DNA from: Marinobacterium stanieri
GTDB taxonomy: Bacteria; Pseudomonadota; Gammaproteobacteria; Pseudomonadales; Balneatricaceae
DNA length: 64,000 nucleotides
Reading direction: 5' to 3'
NCBI RefSeq assembly: GCF_900155945.1
Contig: NZ_FTMN01000002.1
Span: forward strand, 372,001-436,000
This document shows positions 14,684 through 28,133 of the stretch, piece by piece. How positions within the stretch are numbered: the stretch's first letter is position 1; every line of letters starts with the position of its first letter. The notes below the pieces were generated by a model. It was given only the letters and a program-made list of their open reading frames with translations, did no database searches and was not told the DNA's origin. The translations under genes were made by a program, and so were the position numbers.

Positions 14684-16395
14684 TAAAGCGTCCTGATTCC
14701 GTGTTCTGCTATGTGATCGGAGAGCGATGGATCACCAGGCGCATCAGCATTCATGGCCCGGCCAAGCGCCATCAGGATGGCGATGATGCCGTCGATCTTG
14801 TTTTCGTTGCGCTCTTTGCGCGGGTAGATGTTGTCCTTGGCGTCCGACTTGGCGGTGACGTTGCTGGCCATCCAGGTGAACAGCGGATCATCTGAGTGAA
14901 TGAAGCGTTTGCCCGTGATCGCTGCTTCCATCTCCCGCATGGGCGGGCTCATGTTCTGGACGGTGTTGCGATATTCCACGATATCGGCGCCGTCTTTCAT
15001 GAGCTGGTGAGCCAGCTGGGTAGCGCGCCATGGGTCGTAGGCGATTTCGTTGATCTGGAATATCGCGGCCAGGTCTTTGATCTCTTCGCGTATCTGATCG
15101 AAGTCGATCTCTTCCCCGTCGGTGACGACCAGGTGCCCGGCGTTCTGCCAGGACTCATAGGCCGCCCGATTGTTGCCGGCCCGCTCGATTGCGCCTTCTG
15201 GCAGGTAGTTGCGGGTGAATGCCGTCCATCGGTCACGGCCAGATTCCAGCCTGTCGCGGAACAGCAGGCCAAGTGAGGCGATATCGGTTTTGCTTGCAAG
15301 ATCGACACCCAGCCAACACTCTTTCCCTTCCATCTGATCCAGCGTGAGCTCCGGATTACCGCAGGCATGCCAATCGGCCATGTTGAGCCAGGCGGTGCGG
15401 GCTGATACCCAGACGTTCAGGTGCTTGGTCAGGAATGCATTGGTTCGGCTTGGATACCGGATGGCATCGCGCTGTTGCTTGAGCAGGAACTCTTCACTGA
15501 CTGACACACCGAAGTTCGGGTTTGCCTTGATCAGTGTGTTTGGGTCTTGCCAGTCATCATCAGCATCAATGGTGTAGATGATGGCGAACAGTTCATCGTT
15601 CGGCATGACACCATCCAGCATCTGCTGGGCTTGGCGTCGCTTGTCGTAACAAGGGCCGGCCAGGTTAAAGCCAGCCGTGGTGATCAGGAACATCAGGCCC
15701 TGCTCACGGGCGCCCATGCCGGTGAGCATTGTTTCGTAGAGGTCGGGGCTGTCGTGTTCGTGGTACTCATCAACCAGCGCGCAGCTGGGCGAGCTACCAT
15801 CCCCCGGGTTGCCAATCAGCGGTTCAAATCGACTGCCATCAGCTGGAATGCTGATGTTCTTGGCCATGATCTCAACACCGGCTGCATTGGTTAGCGCCGG
15901 TGTTTTCTCAAGCATCAGCTTGGCTGGGCGGAATACCTCCCAGGCCTGTTTCTCTGTGGTCGCGCCACAGTAGACCTCAGCGCCATATTCTCCATCAGCG
16001 CAAAGCATGTAGATGCCCACGCCAGCCGCGATGACTGATTTACCGTTCTTACGCGGGATCTCACAGTAAGCCTCGGTGAAGCGGCGCAGGCCGTCTTTCT
16101 TCTTCAGCCAGCCAAACACACTGCAGAATATGAATTTCTGCCAGGGCTCCAGCTCGATCAGCTTGCGCTCTCGTGCCCACTGGCCCTTCGTGTGGGGTAG
16201 AAGCTGAACAAAGACACAGGCCTTCTCGGCTTCGTCCTTGTCGAATTTGAATGCAAACCCTCGCTTCTTCGAGAGTTTCAGATCATCCAGGTGGCGCTTA
16301 CACGCCTGCCGCACCTCCTTGCATGCAGCAATGCGGCCAGCAACGATGTCCCGCGCGTACTTGTTCGCGGCATTGACGTTCGGGTAACTGGCCAT
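14683..16395 (-). CDS. Terminase large subunit
   Basis: 570 residues, an HK97-type large terminase. Walker A is PRKNGKS at residues 114-120 and Walker B is ALVDE at 206-210, followed by the coupling motif region (LITTAGF, about 238-244). The C-terminal nuclease starts with LGVDLASKTD (Asp365). It is the ATPase motor and nuclease that packages DNA. It follows the small subunit by 9 bp. Confidence 0.95.
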   Translation of the reverse strand: MASYPNVNAANKYARDIVAGRIAACKEVRQACKRHLDDLKLSKKRGFAFKFDKDEAEKACVFVQLLPHTKGQWARERKLIELEPWQKFIFCSVFGWLKKKDGLRRFTEAYCEIPRKNGKSVIAAGVGIYMLCADGEYGAEVYCGATTEKQAWEVFRPAKLMLEKTPALTNAAGVEIMAKNISIPADGSRFEPLIGNPGDGSSPSCALVDEYHEHDSPDLYETMLTGMGAREQGLMFLITTAGFNLAGPCYDKRRQAQQMLDGVMPNDELFAIIYTIDADDDWQDPNTLIKANPNFGVSVSEEFLLKQQRDAIRYPSRTNAFLTKHLNVWVSARTAWLNMADWHACGNPELTLDQMEGKECWLGVDLASKTDIASLGLLFRDRLESGRDRWTAFTRNYLPEGAIERAGNNRAAYESWQNAGHLVVTDGEEIDFDQIREEIKDLAAIFQINEIAYDPWRATQLAHQLMKDGADIVEYRNTVQNMSPPMREMEAAITGKRFIHSDDPLFTWMASNVTAKSDAKDNIYPRKERNENKIDGIIAILMALGRAMNADAPGDPSLSDHIAEHGIRTL

Positions 16396-16404
16396 TGAGT
16401 CTCA

Positions 16405-16887
16405 TCACTTCCCGCCCCGCTTCTTGCCGAGCAATGCGGCGAATGGGTTATCGTCCTCTCCACTCCCTGGCACAGCCAGTCGAACCCGGCTTGCCGGATC
16501 CAACCCAAGCGCGGAACCAAACATGGCCATTTGCTTAAGGGACTCATTGATTACAGTTGCGGCCGGATTCTTAACCGGCCCGCCAGTTGCGCCCTCTACA
16601 ACAGGCCCCTCTTTGGCGTAGTGCTCTTCAGCATCGCGCCAGCGGCTATAGGCAGAACAGAAGGCTTCGAGGTTGTGCAGGTCTGTTGCGGTCAGGATCT
16701 TGGAACCCACTAACCAGCTGGCCAAATGATCCCAGGCTTCGGTGCCGAGTTCAGTCAGCCAAACCGGCGCTTCTGGAATTTGCTGAAGTGCTTCAGCCTG
16801 AGGTTCAGCATCGTTCAGTTTCCGCTTGCCGGCGTTACCCTGGATGACCTTAAGGCTGCTCGGCTTGGGCTTGCGTCCGCGTGTCAT
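16405..16887 (-). CDS. Terminase small subunit, P27 family
   Basis: 160 residues. MTRGRKPKPSSLKVIQGN and RKLNDAEPQ at the N-terminus, then the helical AWDHLASWLVGSKILTATD segment, are characteristic of P27-type small terminases, which recognise the packaging start. The C-terminus is basic (LLGKKRGGK). The presence of an HNH gene just upstream is usual for this class. Confidence 0.92.
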   Translation of the reverse strand: MTRGRKPKPSSLKVIQGNAGKRKLNDAEPQAEALQQIPEAPVWLTELGTEAWDHLASWLVGSKILTATDLHNLEAFCSAYSRWRDAEEHYAKEGPVVEGATGGPVKNPAATVINESLKQMAMFGSALGLDPASRVRLAVPGSGEDDNPFAALLGKKRGGK

Positions 16888-16995
16888 AGATGAGAACCAT
16901 TCGCGCCGGATTTAATTTTCAATTTCGCGGCTGTAAAAATTTGACTGGGTCATAGCGGTGTCCGGGCTTAAAGGTGTAGAGATTTGACCCCCCCC
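16888..16995. other. Candidate cos/packaging region
   Basis: A 108-bp space between the HNH gene and the small terminase, with a run of nine C residues (16988-16996, reaching into the HNH stop) and two copies of ATTTGAC (near 16949 and 16982). In HK97-type phages the cos site lies near this position. No known cos sequence is recognised. Confidence 0.3.
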
Positions 16996-17367
16996 CTACC
17001 CCTGCTGGGCTCGCTTGGCCTCGGCCTGCGTCTTCACGTCATGGCAGGCCTTGCAGATCGCCTGGAGATTGCTGTCTGCATCCGTGCCGCCTTCAGCCTT
17101 CGGGATGATGTGGTCAACCTGGGCAGCTGGCGTGACTCGGTTGTTCTTCAGACAGGGTTGGCACAGCCCTTGGTCACGTCGCAGAACGGCATCGCGCTTA
17201 CGTCGCCACGGTCGGCCGCCTCGGCCCGATCCCTTCCGCGTTGCCCAAGCCTTCCGCGTTGCCCAAGCCTTGTGCAGGTGCTCATGCTCTTCGCAGTAAC
17301 CATGGCTGGCCGTTGTCTTGTTGCCGCAGGCAGGTGCTCTGCAGGGGCGTGGCGGCTTACTCGGCAT
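16996..17367 (-). CDS. HNH endonuclease (packaging-associated)
   Basis: 123 residues from ATG at 17367 (MPSKPPRPC); upstream codons in the same frame are not needed. The core is VDHIIPKAEGGTDADSNLQAIC...H with two CxxC pairs (CQPC, CKAC), the normal phage HNH zinc-binding fold that works with terminase at the cos site. An N-terminal CxxC-like finger (PCRAPACGN) is also present. The middle contains a duplicated KAWATR peptide caused by an exact 18-bp tandem repeat. Confidence 0.9.
   Translation of the reverse strand: MPSKPPRPCRAPACGNKTTASHGYCEEHEHLHKAWATRKAWATRKGSGRGGRPWRRKRDAVLRRDQGLCQPCLKNNRVTPAAQVDHIIPKAEGGTDADSNLQAICKACHDVKTQAEAKRAQQG
17232..17267. repeat. 18-bp exact tandem duplication in the HNH gene
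   Basis: CCTTCCGCGTTGCCCAAG occurs twice in a row (17232-17249 and 17250-17267), followed by a partial third start (CCTT). In frame it duplicates six residues (KAWATR) ahead of the HNH core. Identical copies imply a recent event or an unstable locus. Confidence 0.95.
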
Positions 17368-17441
17368 TGTGGTTCCAGTGGTGGTGATGCATTGGAGTGT
17401 GAAAAATTCTCGATAACCACGTAGTTGCGCCTGCCCCGCGG

Positions 17442-17732
17442 TCATTTGGGGGTCCCAGGGGCCCCGTCGTTTACGTCCTGAGCTTCGTCGGACCAGCCTC
17501 TGACGCTGATTCGATCATCGTTGCACTGCTTTACGAACAACTCACAATGCGCGATGTAGTCCCCGTACGTGCCGTTCAGAGAAGGCGCGACAAGCGTGTC
17601 AGTCCAGGTTTGTGGCACCGGTTCCCTCAGGTACTGGGGGGTGGGTTCGAAAAATACGCACCCGCTCAGCAATATCAGCATCAATGCCAGCATTGTGACA
17701 GGCGCCAGGATCACCGAGATCACGGAGCTCAT
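17442..17732 (-). CDS. Rz1-like outer membrane spanin lipoprotein
   Basis: A frame overlapping the end of Rz in another reading frame encodes a lipoprotein: a long hydrophobic stretch ends in LILLSGC, a good lipobox, and the mature part (about 72 residues, starting CVFFEPTPQYLREPVPQ) is Pro-containing near its start, as in Rz1. The start is uncertain; ATG 17732 gives 96 residues, ATG 17762 and ATG 17693 are alternatives. It would pair with Rz to fuse the inner and outer membranes during lysis. It extends 157 bp beyond Rz, longer than lambda Rz1. Confidence 0.8.
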   Translation of the reverse strand: MSSVISVILAPVTMLALMLILLSGCVFFEPTPQYLREPVPQTWTDTLVAPSLNGTYGDYIAHCELFVKQCNDDRISVRGWSDEAQDVNDGAPGTPK

Positions 17733-17967
17733 CAGCCAATTGACCAGCCCTACGTACAGCATCAGCACGTTGTCGAGCAGTCTCAGCGAGCATTCGGTCG
17801 GTCTGTTCATGACGGGCCTGCTGTTCAAGGAGGGTCTGGTTAAGATGGATGATTGCTTGTTCGTACTGGTCCTGTTCTGCTCGGTATTCACCGATGGACA
17901 TCAGTGACCAGATCAAACCGCCGGCCAGACTGATCAGCAGAGCTGCCAGCATCAGCCAGCGGCTCAC
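17599..17967 (-). CDS. Rz-like inner membrane spanin
   Basis: 122 residues with one N-terminal membrane segment (residues 5-24, MLAALLISLAGGLIWSLM) and a periplasmic coiled coil (Gln/Glu/Ala/Arg-rich, residues 30-90). This is the standard i-spanin layout. It overlaps the endolysin stop by 4 bp (ATGA) and carries most of the Rz1 start region in another frame. The lysis cassette order is holin, endolysin, Rz, Rz1. Confidence 0.88.
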   Translation of the reverse strand: MSRWLMLAALLISLAGGLIWSLMSIGEYRAEQDQYEQAIIHLNQTLLEQQARHEQTDRMLAETARQRADAVRRAGQLADELRDLGDPGACHNAGIDADIAERVRIFRTHPPVPEGTGATNLD

Positions 17968-18428
17968 AGCCCTACCTCACAGAGTTCACGCTCTACCTGC
18001 CGGCGCCTCACAAGCCCCTCAAGCTTGCGGCCACCGGCATACACCCAGCGTGATAACTCAGCGCAGGCCCCGGCAGGGTCACCGGCGTTGAGCTTACGAA
18101 GCAGTGTTGAGCGCTTGAATGCGCCCTCACCTACGTTGAATACAAATGAAGCCAATGCAGCTCTTCGCTCAATGGGCAGCTGTACCTGGGCATGGCGATC
18201 TACAGCAGCCAAAGCTTTACCAAGGTCTGCTTTCAATAGTTCGTCGCACTGTGCGTCAGTGTGGGTCTGACCCAGTTTTGCCGATTCAGTGTGGCCATAG
18301 CAGATAGTTACCACACCCACAGGATCGACATAGGCTTCAGGTTCATTGCCTTCAAACAGCGTTACAACGGCTGTTGCCATTGAGACAGTGGCTGTCAGCG
18401 CAATTGCAGCTACTCGTTTCTTGAGCAT
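17964..18428 (-). CDS. SAR endolysin, GH24 lysozyme
   Basis: 154 residues. The catalytic pattern is exactly E26-x8-D35-x5-T41 (FEGNEP, YVDP, GVVT), the T4/P21 lysozyme triad, followed by ICYGHT. The N-terminus (MLKKRVAAIALTATVSMATAVV) has two Lys and an Arg followed by a weakly hydrophobic Ala/Thr/Ser-rich segment with no cleavage site before the active-site Glu, the signature of a signal-anchor-release endolysin that reaches the periplasm by Sec and is freed when the membrane depolarises. It cleaves the peptidoglycan glycan strand. It overlaps the holin by 19 bp. Confidence 0.93.
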   Translation of the reverse strand: MLKKRVAAIALTATVSMATAVVTLFEGNEPEAYVDPVGVVTICYGHTESAKLGQTHTDAQCDELLKADLGKALAAVDRHAQVQLPIERRAALASFVFNVGEGAFKRSTLLRKLNAGDPAGACAELSRWVYAGGRKLEGLVRRRQVERELCEVGL

Positions 18429-18646
18429 TCGCGTGCCTCCCGTCGACTCTTACGCCACTGGGCGAACTGATACCGGTAACGGGGGATCAGCAGGCCTATC
18501 TGAAGGGCCAGATAAATCAGGGTAATGATTGCCACCCAGTCACTCAGTGATAGGCCCAGCAGGTAATGGGCACTTGTCACGGCGATTGGCGGAGCGGCTT
18601 TACCAGCTTCAACGCCAATGTCATGGAGTACAGACTGGTTACTCAT
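18410..18646 (-). CDS. Holin (pinholin-type candidate)
   Basis: 78 residues from ATG 18646 (MSNQSVLHDIG). It has a strong transmembrane segment (WVAIITLIYLALQIGLLI, about 38-55) with a weaker one before it (residues 20-35, APPIAVTSAHYLLG) and a basic C-terminal tail (RWRKSRREARE type). Location directly before a SAR endolysin, size and charge pattern support a holin. The SAR partner suggests a pinholin, which only needs to depolarise the membrane; that is inference. Confidence 0.82.
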   Translation of the reverse strand: MSNQSVLHDIGVEAGKAAPPIAVTSAHYLLGLSLSDWVAIITLIYLALQIGLLIPRYRYQFAQWRKSRREARECSRNE

Positions 18647-18718
18647 GGGATGCTGCGGTCCTTTTGGGGCGCCACAGCCAGGCTGCAGCGGTGGGGAATT
18701 TCGCTGCAGAACAGGCAC

Positions 18719-18742
18719 AAAAAAGCCCCGCGATTGCGAGGC
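18719..18742 (-). terminator. Rho-independent terminator ahead of lysis genes (tR'-like)
   Basis: On the minus strand GCCTCGC-AATC-GCGGGGC is followed by six T, a strong intrinsic terminator. It lies about 30 nt after the predicted start of the late promoter (18780-18808) and before the holin, so late genes can be read only if it is overcome. This mirrors the lambda pR'-tR' arrangement. Confidence 0.85.
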
Positions 18743-18779
18743 TTGCTGTCGATTGCGGTCACTGCGACCAGCATGGCTA

Positions 18780-18808
18780 AACTGTAGCTTTGCTTTCTCG
18801 CATTTTCA
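18780..18808 (-). promoter_or_regulatory. Putative late promoter (pR'-like)
   Basis: Minus-strand -35 TTGAAA (18803-18808) and -10 TACAGT (18780-18785) are separated by 17 bp. It points toward holin and the late genes and is followed within about 30 nt by the terminator at 18719-18742. Confidence 0.65.
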
Positions 18809-18894
18809 AGAAAACCACTGTATTTTTTCACAGTATCGGTGGTTGCCTGGGTTTGATAGGATCTTGTTGCGATTTTCATACATAGGGAGCTTGG

Positions 18895-19350
18895 ATGAAA
18901 AAGTGCTACCCACCTTTATTCCCGCCTGGGTTTCATGACATAGCTATTGCTGATATACATTCGCTGTTTGTTGCCCCTTTTCGCGACAACTCTCGTCGAA
19001 CTATGCTGTCTAAGAAGCTAATGGAGTACATAGACGATCTTCAAAGTGTGCTTCAACCACATGGCGTAGCTGGCGAGTTGTGGATTGATGGTTCGTTTGG
19101 CACGGAAAAAATTCATCCAGATGATGTGGATCTAATAGTATTCATACCAGGTGCTGACTTAAACTCGCTGCCGCCACATTCACAGCAGAGACTGCAAGGT
19201 TTGCTGAATACAAGCTACGCTAAAGTAAATTACAGCTGTGATGCTTATTTTTGCGTAACTGAAGACCAACCCCAAAGGAGTTACTGGCGTGGCTGGTTCA
19301 TGTTTGACCGCGATGAGCAGCCCAAGGGAATTGCAAGGGTGACGATATGA
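18895..19350 (+). CDS. Nucleotidyltransferase-fold protein (DUF6932-like)
   Basis: 151 residues. It starts with YPPLFPPGFHDIAIADI, the LxPG[LF]H-type opening of DUF6932 proteins, and has the nucleotidyltransferase motif DGSFGTEKIHPDDVDLIVF (Gly66-Ser67, Asp77, Asp79). The fold could transfer nucleotides to RNA, tRNA or protein, as in MNT and AbiEii systems. It overlaps the next gene by 4 bp (ATGA). It is on the plus strand between the lysis and Q-like genes that run on the minus strand, so it is cargo. The pair is more A+T-rich by eye than the flanking genes. Confidence 0.8.
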   Translation: MKKCYPPLFPPGFHDIAIADIHSLFVAPFRDNSRRTMLSKKLMEYIDDLQSVLQPHGVAGELWIDGSFGTEKIHPDDVDLIVFIPGADLNSLPPHSQQRLQGLLNTSYAKVNYSCDAYFCVTEDQPQRSYWRGWFMFDRDEQPKGIARVTI

Positions 19351-20276
19351 CTAATACTACACATTCTCTCCCACTTGCGGAGAGAAAGACAGCTGTCGAG
19401 GAAATGCTAAAGTCTCTTGAAGATAAGACTGACTTTGCATCAAGCCTAATGCGCAGCTCTCTAGATAGTCATTTGTCCGATGTTCGTGAACAGCTGAATG
19501 AATCAGAGACCTCATCCGATCAGCGTGAGGTTGTCGAGATGCGCCTTTCGGGAGCTTCCGTAGATTCAGGAACAACTCCTGCGCAGCTTCTCTCCAATGT
19601 TCTTAAGCATTTCAATTCTGGCATTGCTCGAGCAGCGCATAAAATTGTCACGGGCCGTGATTCTCAAAAAACATCTAGTGCAATTCATGAACTTTTGGAC
19701 TTAAGGTTTTACCGGCTCCAGCCTGGCTCTGCCAGGGTAACCTTAACAGCCAGTTCAAATGGGGACCTAGCCGGGAATACGACTAAAGAGACGCTGGACC
19801 AAGTCTTTAATTTTTTGGAGAGTCTAGATAGTGAAGAGCGCTTCATTGATCAGGTCTCAAATATTGGCTTGAACTCACTTAATAGTTTTAATGCTCTCGC
19901 GAACGATATTGCTAAATCAAGCCTGTCCGTAAGCCTCAACTGGCCCGATGCAGAATCTGGTCGATCCCACTCTTGGCGGGCCGGTAAAGCTGAATTCGAA
20001 TTGCTTAAAGCAAGAACCAAATCAATTGATATTCGGCGCACATCTGTAGAACGTCTTGATGGCATTGTGACGCTTGTTGGTGAAAAAGGCGTTCTCAGCC
20101 TCAGGACTGATGCCGGAGAGGAGGTTCGAGCAAGGTTTTCTGAAAAGCTTCTCGATAGCGTTCAGGCATCATGTCATCTTGGCTCCAAAATCACAGCGGA
20201 CTTTGACGTTACAACTATTGGAAACACTACTGTTCAAGTTCAAAAAAAGTCCTACTTATTGAAACAAATAGTCTAA
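19347..20276 (+). CDS. Partner protein of NTase cassette, unknown function
   Basis: 309 residues, coupled to the nucleotidyltransferase by a 4-bp overlap and followed by a terminator, so the two form one unit. The first 200 residues are largely helical with Ser/Leu/Glu heptads; there is no signal peptide or membrane segment. The C-terminal 75 residues look like a small beta-barrel (GIVTLVGEKGVLSLRTDAGE, ARFSEKLL, LGSKITADFDV). I do not recognise a family. By analogy with two-gene NTase systems it could be a toxin, antitoxin or adaptor, but nothing in the sequence decides. Confidence 0.75.
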   Translation: MTNTTHSLPLAERKTAVEEMLKSLEDKTDFASSLMRSSLDSHLSDVREQLNESETSSDQREVVEMRLSGASVDSGTTPAQLLSNVLKHFNSGIARAAHKIVTGRDSQKTSSAIHELLDLRFYRLQPGSARVTLTASSNGDLAGNTTKETLDQVFNFLESLDSEERFIDQVSNIGLNSLNSFNALANDIAKSSLSVSLNWPDAESGRSHSWRAGKAEFELLKARTKSIDIRRTSVERLDGIVTLVGEKGVLSLRTDAGEEVRARFSEKLLDSVQASCHLGSKITADFDVTTIGNTTVQVQKKSYLLKQIV

Positions 20277-20284
20277 TATTTACG

Positions 20285-20307
20285 CCCCTCGAATCCGAGG
20301 GGCTTTT
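20285..20307 (+). terminator. Terminator of the NTase cassette
   Basis: CCCCTCG-AATC-CGAGGGG followed by C and four T, 8 bp after the stop of the cassette's second gene. A perfect 7-bp stem. It isolates the cassette from the convergent Q-like gene. Confidence 0.88.
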
Positions 20308-20325: not shown

Positions 20326-20847
20326 TCAGCCAGCCTTTTGTAGAAGATCCTTTATCTGATCTATCTCATCCAGTTTTTTTCCCAATTCATCCCGTGCCTT
20401 TACCAATCTCAACGCATACTGTCGATCACCCAACCCCAATCGCCCACACACCACATGTGCCGGGTCCTTCTGCCAATACCGCTGCGCCAACAGCACCAGC
20501 GAATACTCAGGCTTGATCTGCCCTTTCCGGATGGTCACGCCCAGGCCTGAGCAGGTACCACAGACCGGCTCATCACCCTTCCCGCAATCCTTACACGGCT
20601 CTGGCATGCCCAGCAGCCACTGGATGATGGTCAACTCTGCGTGGCGCTTTCGTGTAGCGCCAGCGGCCTGAAGCATGAAGTCATTCGAAGTATCCATACC
20701 AGACGGCGGCGGGAGATCCCCTTTCCACACCTGTAAGCGGTGCAGATCATTTTCACCATGCCAGCCCCGTTCGTGGCGCTCCAGGTGATTGAGGTACACC
20801 GTCAGTAGGTTATCGATCCGGCTACGCATTTCCCTGGTTACTGCCAT
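20326..20847 (-). CDS. Q-like antitermination protein candidate
   Basis: 173 residues with a zinc-binding C85-x2-C88-x7-C96-x2-C99 in the middle and a helical C-terminus containing ...YSLVLLAQRYW... and a positively charged helix. Position between the replication/recombination genes and the late promoter, with the zinc finger, is that of lambdoid Q proteins, which bind near the late promoter and modify RNA polymerase to pass the downstream terminator. The N-terminal helix MRSRIDNLLTVYLNHLE is shared by several phage antiterminators by memory; a profile search was not possible. Confidence 0.6.
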   Translation of the reverse strand: MAVTREMRSRIDNLLTVYLNHLERHERGWHGENDLHRLQVWKGDLPPPSGMDTSNDFMLQAAGATRKRHAELTIIQWLLGMPEPCKDCGKGDEPVCGTCSGLGVTIRKGQIKPEYSLVLLAQRYWQKDPAHVVCGRLGLGDRQYALRLVKARDELGKKLDEIDQIKDLLQKAG

Positions 20848-26185: not shown

Positions 26186-26232
26186 CAATACGTTTATTGA
26201 TTAGCGTCCGCAAGACGTAAACAATCTGTTTA
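26161..26232. promoter_or_regulatory. OR-like set of three repressor operators
   Basis: Three 15-bp sites share the palindrome TAAACAnnnTGTTTA: TAAACATTGTGTGTA (26161-26175), TCAACAATACGTTTA (26182-26196) and the perfect TAAACAATCTGTTTA (26218-26232). They lie between the divergent repressor and Cro-like genes and overlap both promoters. The third overlaps the -10 and ATG of the repressor gene, so it would serve autoregulation. Confidence 0.88.
26194..26223 (+). promoter_or_regulatory. PRM-like repressor promoter
   Basis: Plus-strand -35 TTATTG (26194-26199), 18-bp spacer, -10 TAAACA (26218-26223). The transcript would begin near 26231, at the ATG of the repressor (26232), giving a leaderless message as for lambda cI from PRM. 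The promoter is weak and overlaps an operator. Confidence 0.55.
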
Positions 26233-26927
26233 TGAATGAAATGATCGAAAGAGTGGATGCTGAGTTACAATCGCGACAATGGTCTCGAGCTGACTTGGCG
26301 AGAAAACTTGGCTACTCAGAGCAACGCCTTATGAACTGGTGGAAACGCGGAATTCCAGCCAGTGAACATTCTCGTGTTGCGAAAGTGCTCGACTGGACTG
26401 TCGATCATCTGCTCACAGGCAGTGCACCTACCAGCGCCAGTGGTCAAAGCAAAGAAAACCACTCCCTGTTAGAAGCCAGCATCGCATCCGATCAAATGAC
26501 GACATCAGTGCCCGTTATGGACCAGGAGTTTTCTGCCGGCCAAGGCGCTGCTGCTCAGAGCATTGAAGACTTTTTTGATGGGCATAGAGATATCAGTTTG
26601 TCCGACTTGGACGCACATGGCATTCAGCCAAGCAACGCACGCATCATCAAGATCCGTGGCGACTCGATGTGGCCTACCCTCTGGGGCGGTGATGAAGTTC
26701 TGGCAGACACCCATGTGCCCCGTCTGACCAGCAGCAAAATTTATGCGTTCGAGTTTGATGGTGAGTTGAAGGTGAAGCGTTTCACCAAGAAGATGGATGG
26801 CAGTTGGCTGATTTCAAGTGACAACAAAGACGATCCGGCCTACACCGATGAGATCGTATCGGCTCACAACGCCCAGCAACTAAGGGTTATTGCTGAGGTT
26901 AAGAAGTTAGTATCACGAAATTTATAG
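26232..26927 (+). CDS. CI-like repressor, S24 peptidase
   Basis: 231 residues. The N-terminal helix-turn-helix spans residues 15-60 (SRADLARKLGYSEQRLMNWWKRG). The C-terminal S24 domain has GDSMWPTL with nucleophile Ser145 and ELKVKRF with the general-base Lys182. The likely self-cleavage bond is Ala102-Gly103 in EFSAGQG. This is a RecA-responsive LexA/CI-type repressor, so induction by DNA damage is expected. It faces the Cro-like gene and its ATG overlaps the third operator. Confidence 0.95.
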   Translation: MNEMIERVDAELQSRQWSRADLARKLGYSEQRLMNWWKRGIPASEHSRVAKVLDWTVDHLLTGSAPTSASGQSKENHSLLEASIASDQMTTSVPVMDQEFSAGQGAAAQSIEDFFDGHRDISLSDLDAHGIQPSNARIIKIRGDSMWPTLWGGDEVLADTHVPRLTSSKIYAFEFDGELKVKRFTKKMDGSWLISSDNKDDPAYTDEIVSAHNAQQLRVIAEVKKLVSRNL

Positions 26928-27014: not shown

Positions 27015-28133
27015 ATGAAGAAAAGAACCAGAGAGCAGCTACAGCGTGAGCTGTTGGCCGGACTTAAAAGACATAGACGTTACCTGGCCCGTAAAGAAAC
27101 TCCTTCAGTTCCAGGAAGAAGCCTCAGGAATAGTCATAATCACTCGATCTTTCATGGATACAGATCGATAGATGCCCCTGAGTTACTTTCGATTTACAAC
27201 ATATCGAAAGAAGATGGCAGCCTCTACACTCAAGCCATTGATTTTTACGACCAAATCCGGCGATATGTTGGCCAAGAGAAGTGTGTGATCAGCTTCAAAA
27301 ATACTCAAGTCATCTCTGCAGCTGCCATAGTGGTGATCTACGCGGCTATTGAAGAGTCACTTCAGAAAGGTACAGCAAGGGCCACTATCGAATGGTCCGG
27401 TTCTAACTCGGCTGTCGTAGTGAACAAGCAGCTTCGAAATATCAATATCCATCTTCTCATTCAAAGAAAGCAAATTACTTACAGCTTTAGAAACAGTCAA
27501 AGCATGCCTATCGTAAGAGGCACGTCAAACCAGTATGTTGACGACATCATCGACTACGTCCAACAATTCATCTACGAGAACGAAATGTCTCCTGAAGAGG
27601 AGTATATTTTCGCTGACGCTGTAACTGAAGCCATCAACAATGTTGGACTTCATGCCTATCCAGACACCGATGCTCAGGACAGGAACTGGTGGCTGATGTG
27701 TGACGTGAAAGATGGCCAGTTGTTTTTGGCCATTTATGATACTGGTGTGGGGATTCCTGCCACTGTGCTTGAAAAAAAGTGGTTCTGGGCTTCACTTAAG
27801 GCTTTTTACCCAGAGGAGTACAATGAGCTGATCAAGCTGATCCCCGGATTTGAGAGCTCTGGGCTTAAATTTGTAGTACCCCAGAAGCTCAAGGATGCTC
27901 AAATGATATACTTATCTATGCAGGGTGATGTTACCGGGACAAGAAGAAGTAAGCATGGGCAGGGAAGTAAAAGCATCAGAGCATTGGTAGATGACACTGA
28001 AGACGGTAAGCTCTGGATCTTCAGCCACAAAGGTCTATACACCTACCCGGCAGAAGACAATGAAACAGGATTATACAAACTACCCAAACAGCTACCCGGA
28101 ACGCTAGTGCAGTGGAACATTAAGCTATCATGA
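27015..28133 (+). CDS. GHKL/HSP90-type ATPase with STAS-like N-terminal region
   Basis: 372 residues. The Bergerat-fold motifs are visible: N box EAINNVGLHAYP (Glu205, Asn208/209), G1 box YDTGVGIP (Asp242, Gly244, Gly246), and G2 box HGQGSKSI (314-321). Residues about 86-150 (CVISFKNTQVISAAAIVVIYAAIEES) resemble a STAS-like module. The gene overlaps the DUF4325 gene by 4 bp. Histidine-kinase-like ATPases with STAS partners form partner-switching pairs (SpoIIAB/SpoIIAA type); here no histidine phospho-acceptor or sensor domain is seen. It lies downstream of the repressor, in the lysogenically expressed zone. Confidence 0.85.
   Translation: MKKRTREQLQRELLAGLKRHRRYLARKETPSVPGRSLRNSHNHSIFHGYRSIDAPELLSIYNISKEDGSLYTQAIDFYDQIRRYVGQEKCVISFKNTQVISAAAIVVIYAAIEESLQKGTARATIEWSGSNSAVVVNKQLRNINIHLLIQRKQITYSFRNSQSMPIVRGTSNQYVDDIIDYVQQFIYENEMSPEEEYIFADAVTEAINNVGLHAYPDTDAQDRNWWLMCDVKDGQLFLAIYDTGVGIPATVLEKKWFWASLKAFYPEEYNELIKLIPGFESSGLKFVVPQKLKDAQMIYLSMQGDVTGTRRSKHGQGSKSIRALVDDTEDGKLWIFSHKGLYTYPAEDNETGLYKLPKQLPGTLVQWNIKLS

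Follow-up and report, generated by a model that had tools for sequence, protein, structure and literature searches.

A prophage gene pair of the phage-defence candidate PDC-M63 as a putative cargo module in Marinobacterium stanieri

An obvious question raised by a two-gene unit that lies against the direction of the surrounding late genes of a prophage is what such a unit does and for whom, i.e. whether it serves the phage or the lysogenic cell that carries it. In the stretch of Marinobacterium stanieri DNA analysed here (64,000 nucleotides in its full length, in the following referred to as the window), a preliminary description based on the sequence alone had noticed a unit of this kind and had proposed a new toxin-antitoxin or abortive-infection pair, consisting of a nucleotidyltransferase and a partner of unfamiliar fold. 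The cassette has the following parts:

18895-19350, plus strand: gene A, DUF6932 / PDC-M63A nucleotidyltransferase, 151 aa (Pfam, PADLOC, alignment, AF2)
19347-20276, plus strand: gene B, PDC-M63B, 309 aa (PADLOC, AF2, VIA-align)
19347-19350, plus strand: ATGA start/stop overlap of A and B (sequence)
20284-20303, plus strand: intrinsic-terminator-like hairpin closing the cassette (scan)

Both reading frames are present and joined by ATGA as originally described, and both run on the plus strand, opposite to the minus-strand phage genes that adjoin them on either side. The A+T-rich look of the cassette is borne out by a GC content of 0.454-0.457 in sliding windows within 18850-20249. On one side (sliding windows of 15000-18499) the values are 0.557-0.593, on the other (starting at 20600) 0.534-0.597, i.e. 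45-46% in the cassette versus about 53-60% around it. The claim that the cassette has a strong terminator of its own stands in so far as a good candidate hairpin is present (20284-20303, with a stem of 8 pairs followed by TTTTCT), but the terminator scan taken by itself is weak evidence, since it returns 5 such sites in 2.5 kb versus a shuffle mean of 2.3 (sd 1.6). Upstream of A, no sigma-70 promoter that could serve the pair is listed in the promoter scan, which overall shows no excess of sites (3 versus 2.5 in shuffles). That the arrangement of A and B is more than chance follows from the pairing of both homologues in the same order elsewhere.

Gene A matches the Pfam family PF22014 (DUF6932) at E 1.9e-30, with 106.6 bits versus a curated cut-off of 27, which confirms its earlier assignment as a DUF6932 nucleotidyltransferase, and the GS...DVD motif is found as described (G66-S67 and D77-V78-D79). 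G66, S67, D77 and D79 are present in all 33 aligned members of the A family and K144-G145 near the C-terminus is invariant too, with D116, the third acidic residue, occurring in 28 of these 33 proteins and being absent in five. With a limit of E 10, the Pfam listing for A contains DUF6932 only, with no MNT and no AbiEii-type family beside it. In VIA comparisons, the AF2 model of A (pLDDT 97) aligns with AadA (Z 7.0, rmsd 3.4, 105 residues aligned), 2rff (Z 6.6, rmsd 4.4, 99 aligned) and the MNT antitoxin 8xeh (Z 5.2, rmsd 4.0, 98 aligned), and there are weak rows for CdnC and CdnB (Z 4.9 and 4.6). With Foldseek, no match of this model reached E 0.001; the top four entries are nucleotidyltransferases or a hypothetical protein (E 0.015-0.066), with 7ae9_G at rank 3 (E 0.061), and a profile of A run against solved structures reached E 0.12 at best, with 6e0k only at E 0.45. 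By sequence and model, A has a Pol beta-like nucleotidyltransferase fold, its closest solved folds being nucleotidyltransferases at modest values; the assignment rests on the motif and the Pfam match.

For gene B, neither Pfam nor NCBIfam gave a family above cut-off. According to its AF2 model (pLDDT 88.1, pTM 0.76), an N-terminal helical hairpin (residues 10-57) leads into an alpha/beta domain (60-226), and the residues from about 231 to 309 form an OB fold at the C-terminus. The C-terminal barrel aligns with the single-strand-binding protein Rim1 SSB (6cqm; VIA-align Z 10.8, rmsd 2.4, 79 aligned) and with PriB (1txy; Z 9.7, rmsd 2.0, 69 aligned), and Foldseek relates it to IF1 (best E 1.2e-3). 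The modelled domain resembles the OB folds of SSB, PriB and IF1, and binding of nucleic acid by B is probable. The best viral structural match of B is a DUF6575 protein (A0A8S5QA00, Foldseek E 8.3e-14), yet the superposition is poor (TM 0.41, rmsd 17.4) and none of 33 members of the B family matches the DUF6575 profile at E 0.1; DUF6575 is among the newly reported defence domains in the excerpted text of PMC9519451. A B profile run against solved structures reached E 0.7 at best. A HEPN identity of B was considered and discarded, as the model is not all-helical, but has strands spread across residues 60-308 and an OB-like C-terminus, and no HEPN profile is listed for it in Pfam at E up to 10; nor did the Pfam and PADLOC profiles give an AbiEi-type match or Pfam a nuclease match above cut-off. 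The predicted fold and the lack of such Pfam matches support the earlier statement that the partner is not recognisable as HEPN or AbiEi. HEPN, winged-helix and Rex-like folds are also absent among the structure matches listed for B, which the OB domain fills, so that the central domain (60-226) is barely probed by them.

The profiles that both genes do match, over nearly their full length, are PDC-M63A (E 2.1e-50) and PDC-M63B (E 3.6e-75) of PADLOC, and the two genes are adjacent, co-directional and in the same order. Judged by sequence, the pair is a member of PDC-M63 (A+B), a phage-defence candidate already listed in PADLOC-DB v2, and nothing separates it from PDC-M63 as a family, although the phage site of the window copy differs from that of the cI-linked members described below. 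The corresponding PHROGs, 9194 and 6603, are both function-unknown entries. The attribute 'new' finds no support, since both genes match PDC-M63 and a deletion of PDC-M63AB has already been tested: in the excerpted text of PMC12409345, a prophage-borne PDC-M63AB was deleted in E. coli NILS69, among other systems, with no evidence of defence against 10 phages. This negative result, which is the one published test of PDC-M63 by name that we found, is the main evidence against a defence function, and it is limited by the phage panel, as its authors say that their collection holds virulent dsDNA phages only. Our literature search found no paper that mentions DUF6932 and nothing on a nucleotidyltransferase downstream of cI, and DUF6932 is absent from the newly validated DUFs in the covered text of PMC13092281.

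How strictly are the two genes linked? Searching IMG/VR with an A profile built from 7 A proteins gave 53 loci on viral contigs, and in all 53, many of them near-identical, A is followed by B on the same strand. The loci with both genes form 34 clusters at 90% identity of B, and the 4-base overlap of A and B is seen in 23 of these (22 with ATG and one with TTG, the starts being chosen by script). Apart from the viral contig L004, which carries an identical pair, the other 32 representatives in the alignment share 15-29% identity with B of the window. The distances of A and of B co-vary with r 0.926 for 33 pairs (Mantel test; none of 2000 permutations as high, maximum 0.421), a value that is inflated by shared ancestry. 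Estimates of dN/dS compare moderately diverged copies and are rough, as dS is 0.9-2.9 in the measured pairs. Of 7 pairs, five could be measured for A, with values of 0.08-0.12, and two for B, with a value of 0.03, the other two and five, respectively, being saturated at synonymous sites; where measurable, both genes look to be under purifying selection. The pair is rare: B occurs in 2 of 96 relatives, own genome included, in a class-wide search (PDLC04751) in 1 of 369 genomes, again the own one, as well as in 6 of 50,697 phage records and 3 of 72,556 plasmid records, and megablast finds the pair of the mEpX1 type in 18 of 5,426 E. coli genomes. Against genome contigs, B alone was found in 0 of 59 candidate stretches and the A1 profile gave 3 loci out of 30 stretches. 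Enterobacter asburiae has, in a plasmid region of phage-like character, a decayed A-B copy with disrupted reading frames (L010:5395-6838).

At a larger phylogenetic distance, it is the partner of DUF6932 that varies. Across the phylum, DUF6932 occurs in 17 of 398 genomes at 18 loci, of which 4 have B by profile; at 12 of the 14 others there is a full-length partner. In 9 of these 14, the partner has 302-334 aa, and the nine proteins taken together as an alignment are remotely homologous to B (hhalign 98.8%, E 6e-17); one further locus has a truncated B-like start and one is ambiguous. The partner is of the HTH_3 + Peptidase_M78 (IrrE) type in 3 of the 14 (L097 and L102 were scanned, and L101 is 72% identical to L097):

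L097:1917-3374: DUF6932 gene followed by an Xre-HTH + IrrE-type protein
L101:578-2038: DUF6932 gene followed by an Xre-HTH + IrrE-type protein
L102:1932-3197: DUF6932 gene followed by an Xre-HTH + IrrE-type protein

The L102 partner matches the PD-lambda-2_B profile at 1e-75, that of L097 only at 2e-7. According to the accessible text of PMC9519451, experiments have established PD-lambda-2 as a TA-like system that acts by abortive infection, in which an upstream HigB-like gene is paired with an Xre-peptidase that is toxic alone and is rescued by the upstream gene.

The pair comes directly after the cI repressor gene, on the same strand, in the coliphages mEpX1 (PV340543, with MG1655 given as host in the record) and PhiR30_1, in Erwinia phage vB_EhrS_59 and in a Klebsiella prophage. 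In lambda, the place next to cI is that of rexAB. The nearest upstream gene is CI-like in 15 of the 32 clusters with upstream sequence, a count in which five of the 15 clusters had themselves served to train the CI profile and four others match it weakly (E 2e-7 to 8e-7). Among 28 upstream proteins chosen for a Pfam scan, 13 had HTH_3 and 10 had Peptidase_S24. The neighbourhoods reveal a strict linkage of A and B and frequently a cI-side place, but this place is not shared by the window copy, as the cI gene of the window (Pfam S24) is located at 26232-26927 and the pair is not beside it.

The site that the pair does occupy in the window is delimited by these genes:

17964-18428, minus strand: endolysin (PHROG 7, E 6.4e-60)
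18410-18718, minus strand: holin, first gene of the lysis block (PHROG 920, E 4.9e-15; Pfam PF10746, E 5.2e-8)
20326-20847, minus strand: 173-aa phage gene, late-regulator candidate at the opposite edge of the cargo site, whose relatives mark such sites, whether empty or filled

Of the originally proposed position between Q-like and lysis genes, the lysis side is secured by the holin and endolysin matches, but the Q-like side is plausible rather than proven, because the 173-aa gene has no significant family match and no Pfam match and the 94-aa gene beside it matches antiterminator Q weakly (E 2.2e-4). Down to E 7e-4, the 173-aa gene has relatives in 17 of the 116 genomes from the bacterial family, and these relatives mark the same site elsewhere; there are 24 related loci, merged by eye to 20 sites, with calls of empty or filled covering all but L135, L136, L137, L139, L141, L143 and L144. 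At two such sites (L120/L134/L151/L152 and L121/L132/L153), the relative of the 173-aa gene is directly followed by late promoter, terminator and endolysin, and the L147 site also looks empty. In a genome of the same genus (L122/L133/L148), the site is filled by an opposite-strand gene with matches to DUF2971 (5.6e-7) and PDC-S31 (3.2e-42):

L122:2047-2952, plus strand: DUF2971 / PDC-S31 defence-candidate gene (scanned from 2095)

Other relatives have other ORFs of 144-234 aa at this site, on either strand and several of them membrane-like by eye; the 8 that were scanned gave no PADLOC match. The window pair is one of several exchangeable cargoes, of which, among those seen, only two are defence candidates. 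Next to the closest relative of the 173-aa gene (L118:4620-5090, minus strand, 83% identity) comes a different ORF on the opposite strand, which is membrane-like and is cut by the contig end.

The region between gene A and the lysis block also holds regulatory elements:

18723-18744, minus strand: terminator between late promoter and holin, tR'-like (scan, relatives)
18781-18809, minus strand: candidate late promoter TTGAAA-17-TACAGT, with the same arrangement aligned in related prophages
18816-18835, no strand: LexA-box-like palindrome CACTGTATTTTTTCACAGTA, upstream of A and adjoining the minus-strand late promoter

The palindrome CACTGTATTTTTTCACAGTA scores 15 of 20 against the E. coli LexA consensus, and in the host two sites before lexA score 16 and 15 and one before recA scores 16. 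No LexA-like site scoring at least 15 appeared in 60 first-order Markov copies of the window, this cut having been chosen after the window site was seen, and the bare CTGT-N8-ACAG occurs once in the window versus 1.19 expected by chance. A LexA-box-like site adjoins the -35 of the predicted late promoter, 88-120 bases before the tR'-like terminator, in 8 of the 20 related sites, with and without cargo (window 18723-18835, L132, L133, L134, L137, L142, L147 and L150), and four of these eight have two overlapping boxes. When ten regions picked for having a site were aligned, 8 shared a -35-like TTGA or similar by the box and a terminator after it, with L146 and L149 fitting less well. Since relatives without the pair also have the box at the late promoter, it most likely belongs to this phage promoter, and the sequence suggests that the late genes are under direct SOS control. 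The idea of the box as a shared feature of the pair was abandoned, as an upstream box was left in 1 of 34 clusters, the window's own; among the five members looked at in the cluster of the mEpX1 type, it is found in L010, where it lies past the start of gene A, in L040 and in L069, and not in L005 and L032.

What, then, could the pair be doing in the prophage? With moderate confidence, we read it as prophage cargo in the sense of lysogenic conversion, i.e. as a TA-like or abortive-infection module of PDC-M63 in which A would be the effector and B its sensor and inhibitor. As far as sequence can tell, the metal-binding acidic residues of A are intact, B is its regular partner and the cassette sits at a replaceable site for variable cargo. 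The assignment of the roles follows from A being constant in the family, with its partner being exchanged (B, remote B and Xre-IrrE types). In the lysogen, A and B would form a complex in which B keeps A quiet; when another phage superinfects, the OB domain of B might sense a nucleic acid that this phage makes, or B might be displaced by it, and the freed A would nucleotidylate a tRNA or protein target of host or phage, such that growth or phage production would be halted and the lysogenic population protected. The function of the pair would hence be exclusion or abortive infection. This part of the preliminary description is favoured by strict linkage, the overlap, the prophage cargo sites and the status of the family as a listed candidate, but the function itself stays at candidate level. 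Counted against such a function are the rarity of the pair, the loss of D116 in five A proteins, the absence of DUF6932 from the newly validated DUFs mentioned above and the negative NILS69 deletion (accessible text of PMC12409345).

A serious rival, even if we regard it as rather unlikely, is that the roles are reversed, with B acting on RNA or DNA through its OB and alpha/beta domains to arrest growth and A being an antitoxin that nucleotidylates and thereby silences B. In HEPN-MNT modules, the nucleotidyltransferase is the antitoxin, and the modelled fold of A lies near MNT antitoxins (Foldseek 7ae9_G, E 0.061; VIA 8xeh, Z 5.2). Moreover, A is small and encoded first, which is common for antitoxins. 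By analogy, the role order in HEPN-MNT and in PD-lambda-2, where the upstream gene rescues from the downstream Xre-peptidase (excerpt of PMC9519451), argues against A as the effector. The exchange of partners around a constant A, however, suggests that A is the conserved business end, and B shows neither an all-helical, HEPN-like model nor a Pfam nuclease match above cut-off.

The role of a prophage-stability or addiction module without anti-phage function would fit a two-gene overlapped operon in prophages as well as the negative defence test in NILS69 (PMC12409345, in its accessible part). We consider it improbable, as an integrated prophage should need addiction less than a plasmid does and as another defence candidate, PDC-S31, resides at the same site in a relative. 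In addition, the cI-linked place of other family members is the classical place of exclusion genes. Least of all do we expect the pair, or the partner gene in particular, to assist the phage itself in late regulation or lysis, which its location, flanked by the Q-like region and the lysis genes and close to a late promoter that carries a LexA-box-like site, might suggest: it has the opposite strand, a terminator candidate of its own and a lower GC content, two related sites without it keep late regulator, promoter, terminator and endolysin, and other phages carry homologous pairs beside cI.

If the effector reading is carried further, DUF6932 may be the constant effector of a broad class of partner-swapping two-gene immunity modules, with either the OB-fold nucleic-acid sensor B, which has remote homologues across the phylum, or Xre-IrrE proteins of the PD-lambda-2 kind as partners; in the present phage group, with the modules placed at a cargo site by a LexA-box late promoter, expression of cargo in the lysogen and LexA-controlled lytic exit would share one intergenic region. 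We advance this extension with somewhat less than even confidence. What is new here is the linkage in 53 of 53 loci, the co-variation of A and B and their apparent purifying selection where measurable, the cI-side place, the sites that are empty or filled by other cargo, the predicted fold of B and the partner types at distant DUF6932 loci. Through the linkage, the cI-side relatives, the sites without cargo and the partner type that also occurs in the validated PD-lambda-2, a domain of unknown function becomes a testable hypothesis, that of a nucleotidyltransferase effector with exchangeable sensors. The findings also suggest temperate phages and the lysogen as the setting for tests, rather than virulent phages only.

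Several known systems invite comparison. HEPN-MNT also is a two-gene unit with a small stand-alone nucleotidyltransferase that has GS...DxD, but B is predicted to consist of hairpin, alpha/beta and OB parts, whereas HEPN is all-helical; MNT antitoxins are among the fold matches of A at Z 5.2 and below, and no MNT Pfam profile is listed. AbiE (AbiEi/AbiEii), with which the idea of phage exclusion is associated, likewise is a two-gene unit with a nucleotidyltransferase, but A matches DUF6932 only and not an AbiEii-type profile, and B has no AbiEi-type match. The CD-NTases of CBASS, which have a C-terminal helical domain, appear for A (151 aa) as the weak CdnC and CdnB rows and, by profile, as 6e0k at E 0.45. 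PD-lambda-2 has as its Xre-IrrE component the partner type of the distant DUF6932 gene in L102; it differs in that its first gene is HigB-like and that it comprises three genes (PMC9519451, excerpted text), and A and B match none of its PADLOC profiles at E up to 10. RexAB of lambda and the RexAB-type pair of Pseudomonas putida resemble the PDC-M63 relatives in being units of two genes beside cI in lambdoid prophages. While RexB is a membrane protein, RexA is described as DNA-binding in the available text of PMC12894663, as B may be. For A and B, no Rex match is listed in Pfam, PADLOC or PHROGs, and the window copy differs from RexAB in not being downstream of cI. Right after the window's cI, i.e. 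in the rex place, there is a plus-strand gene of 372 aa (27015-28133) with a HATPase match below cut-off and no PADLOC match, which is likely another cargo gene.
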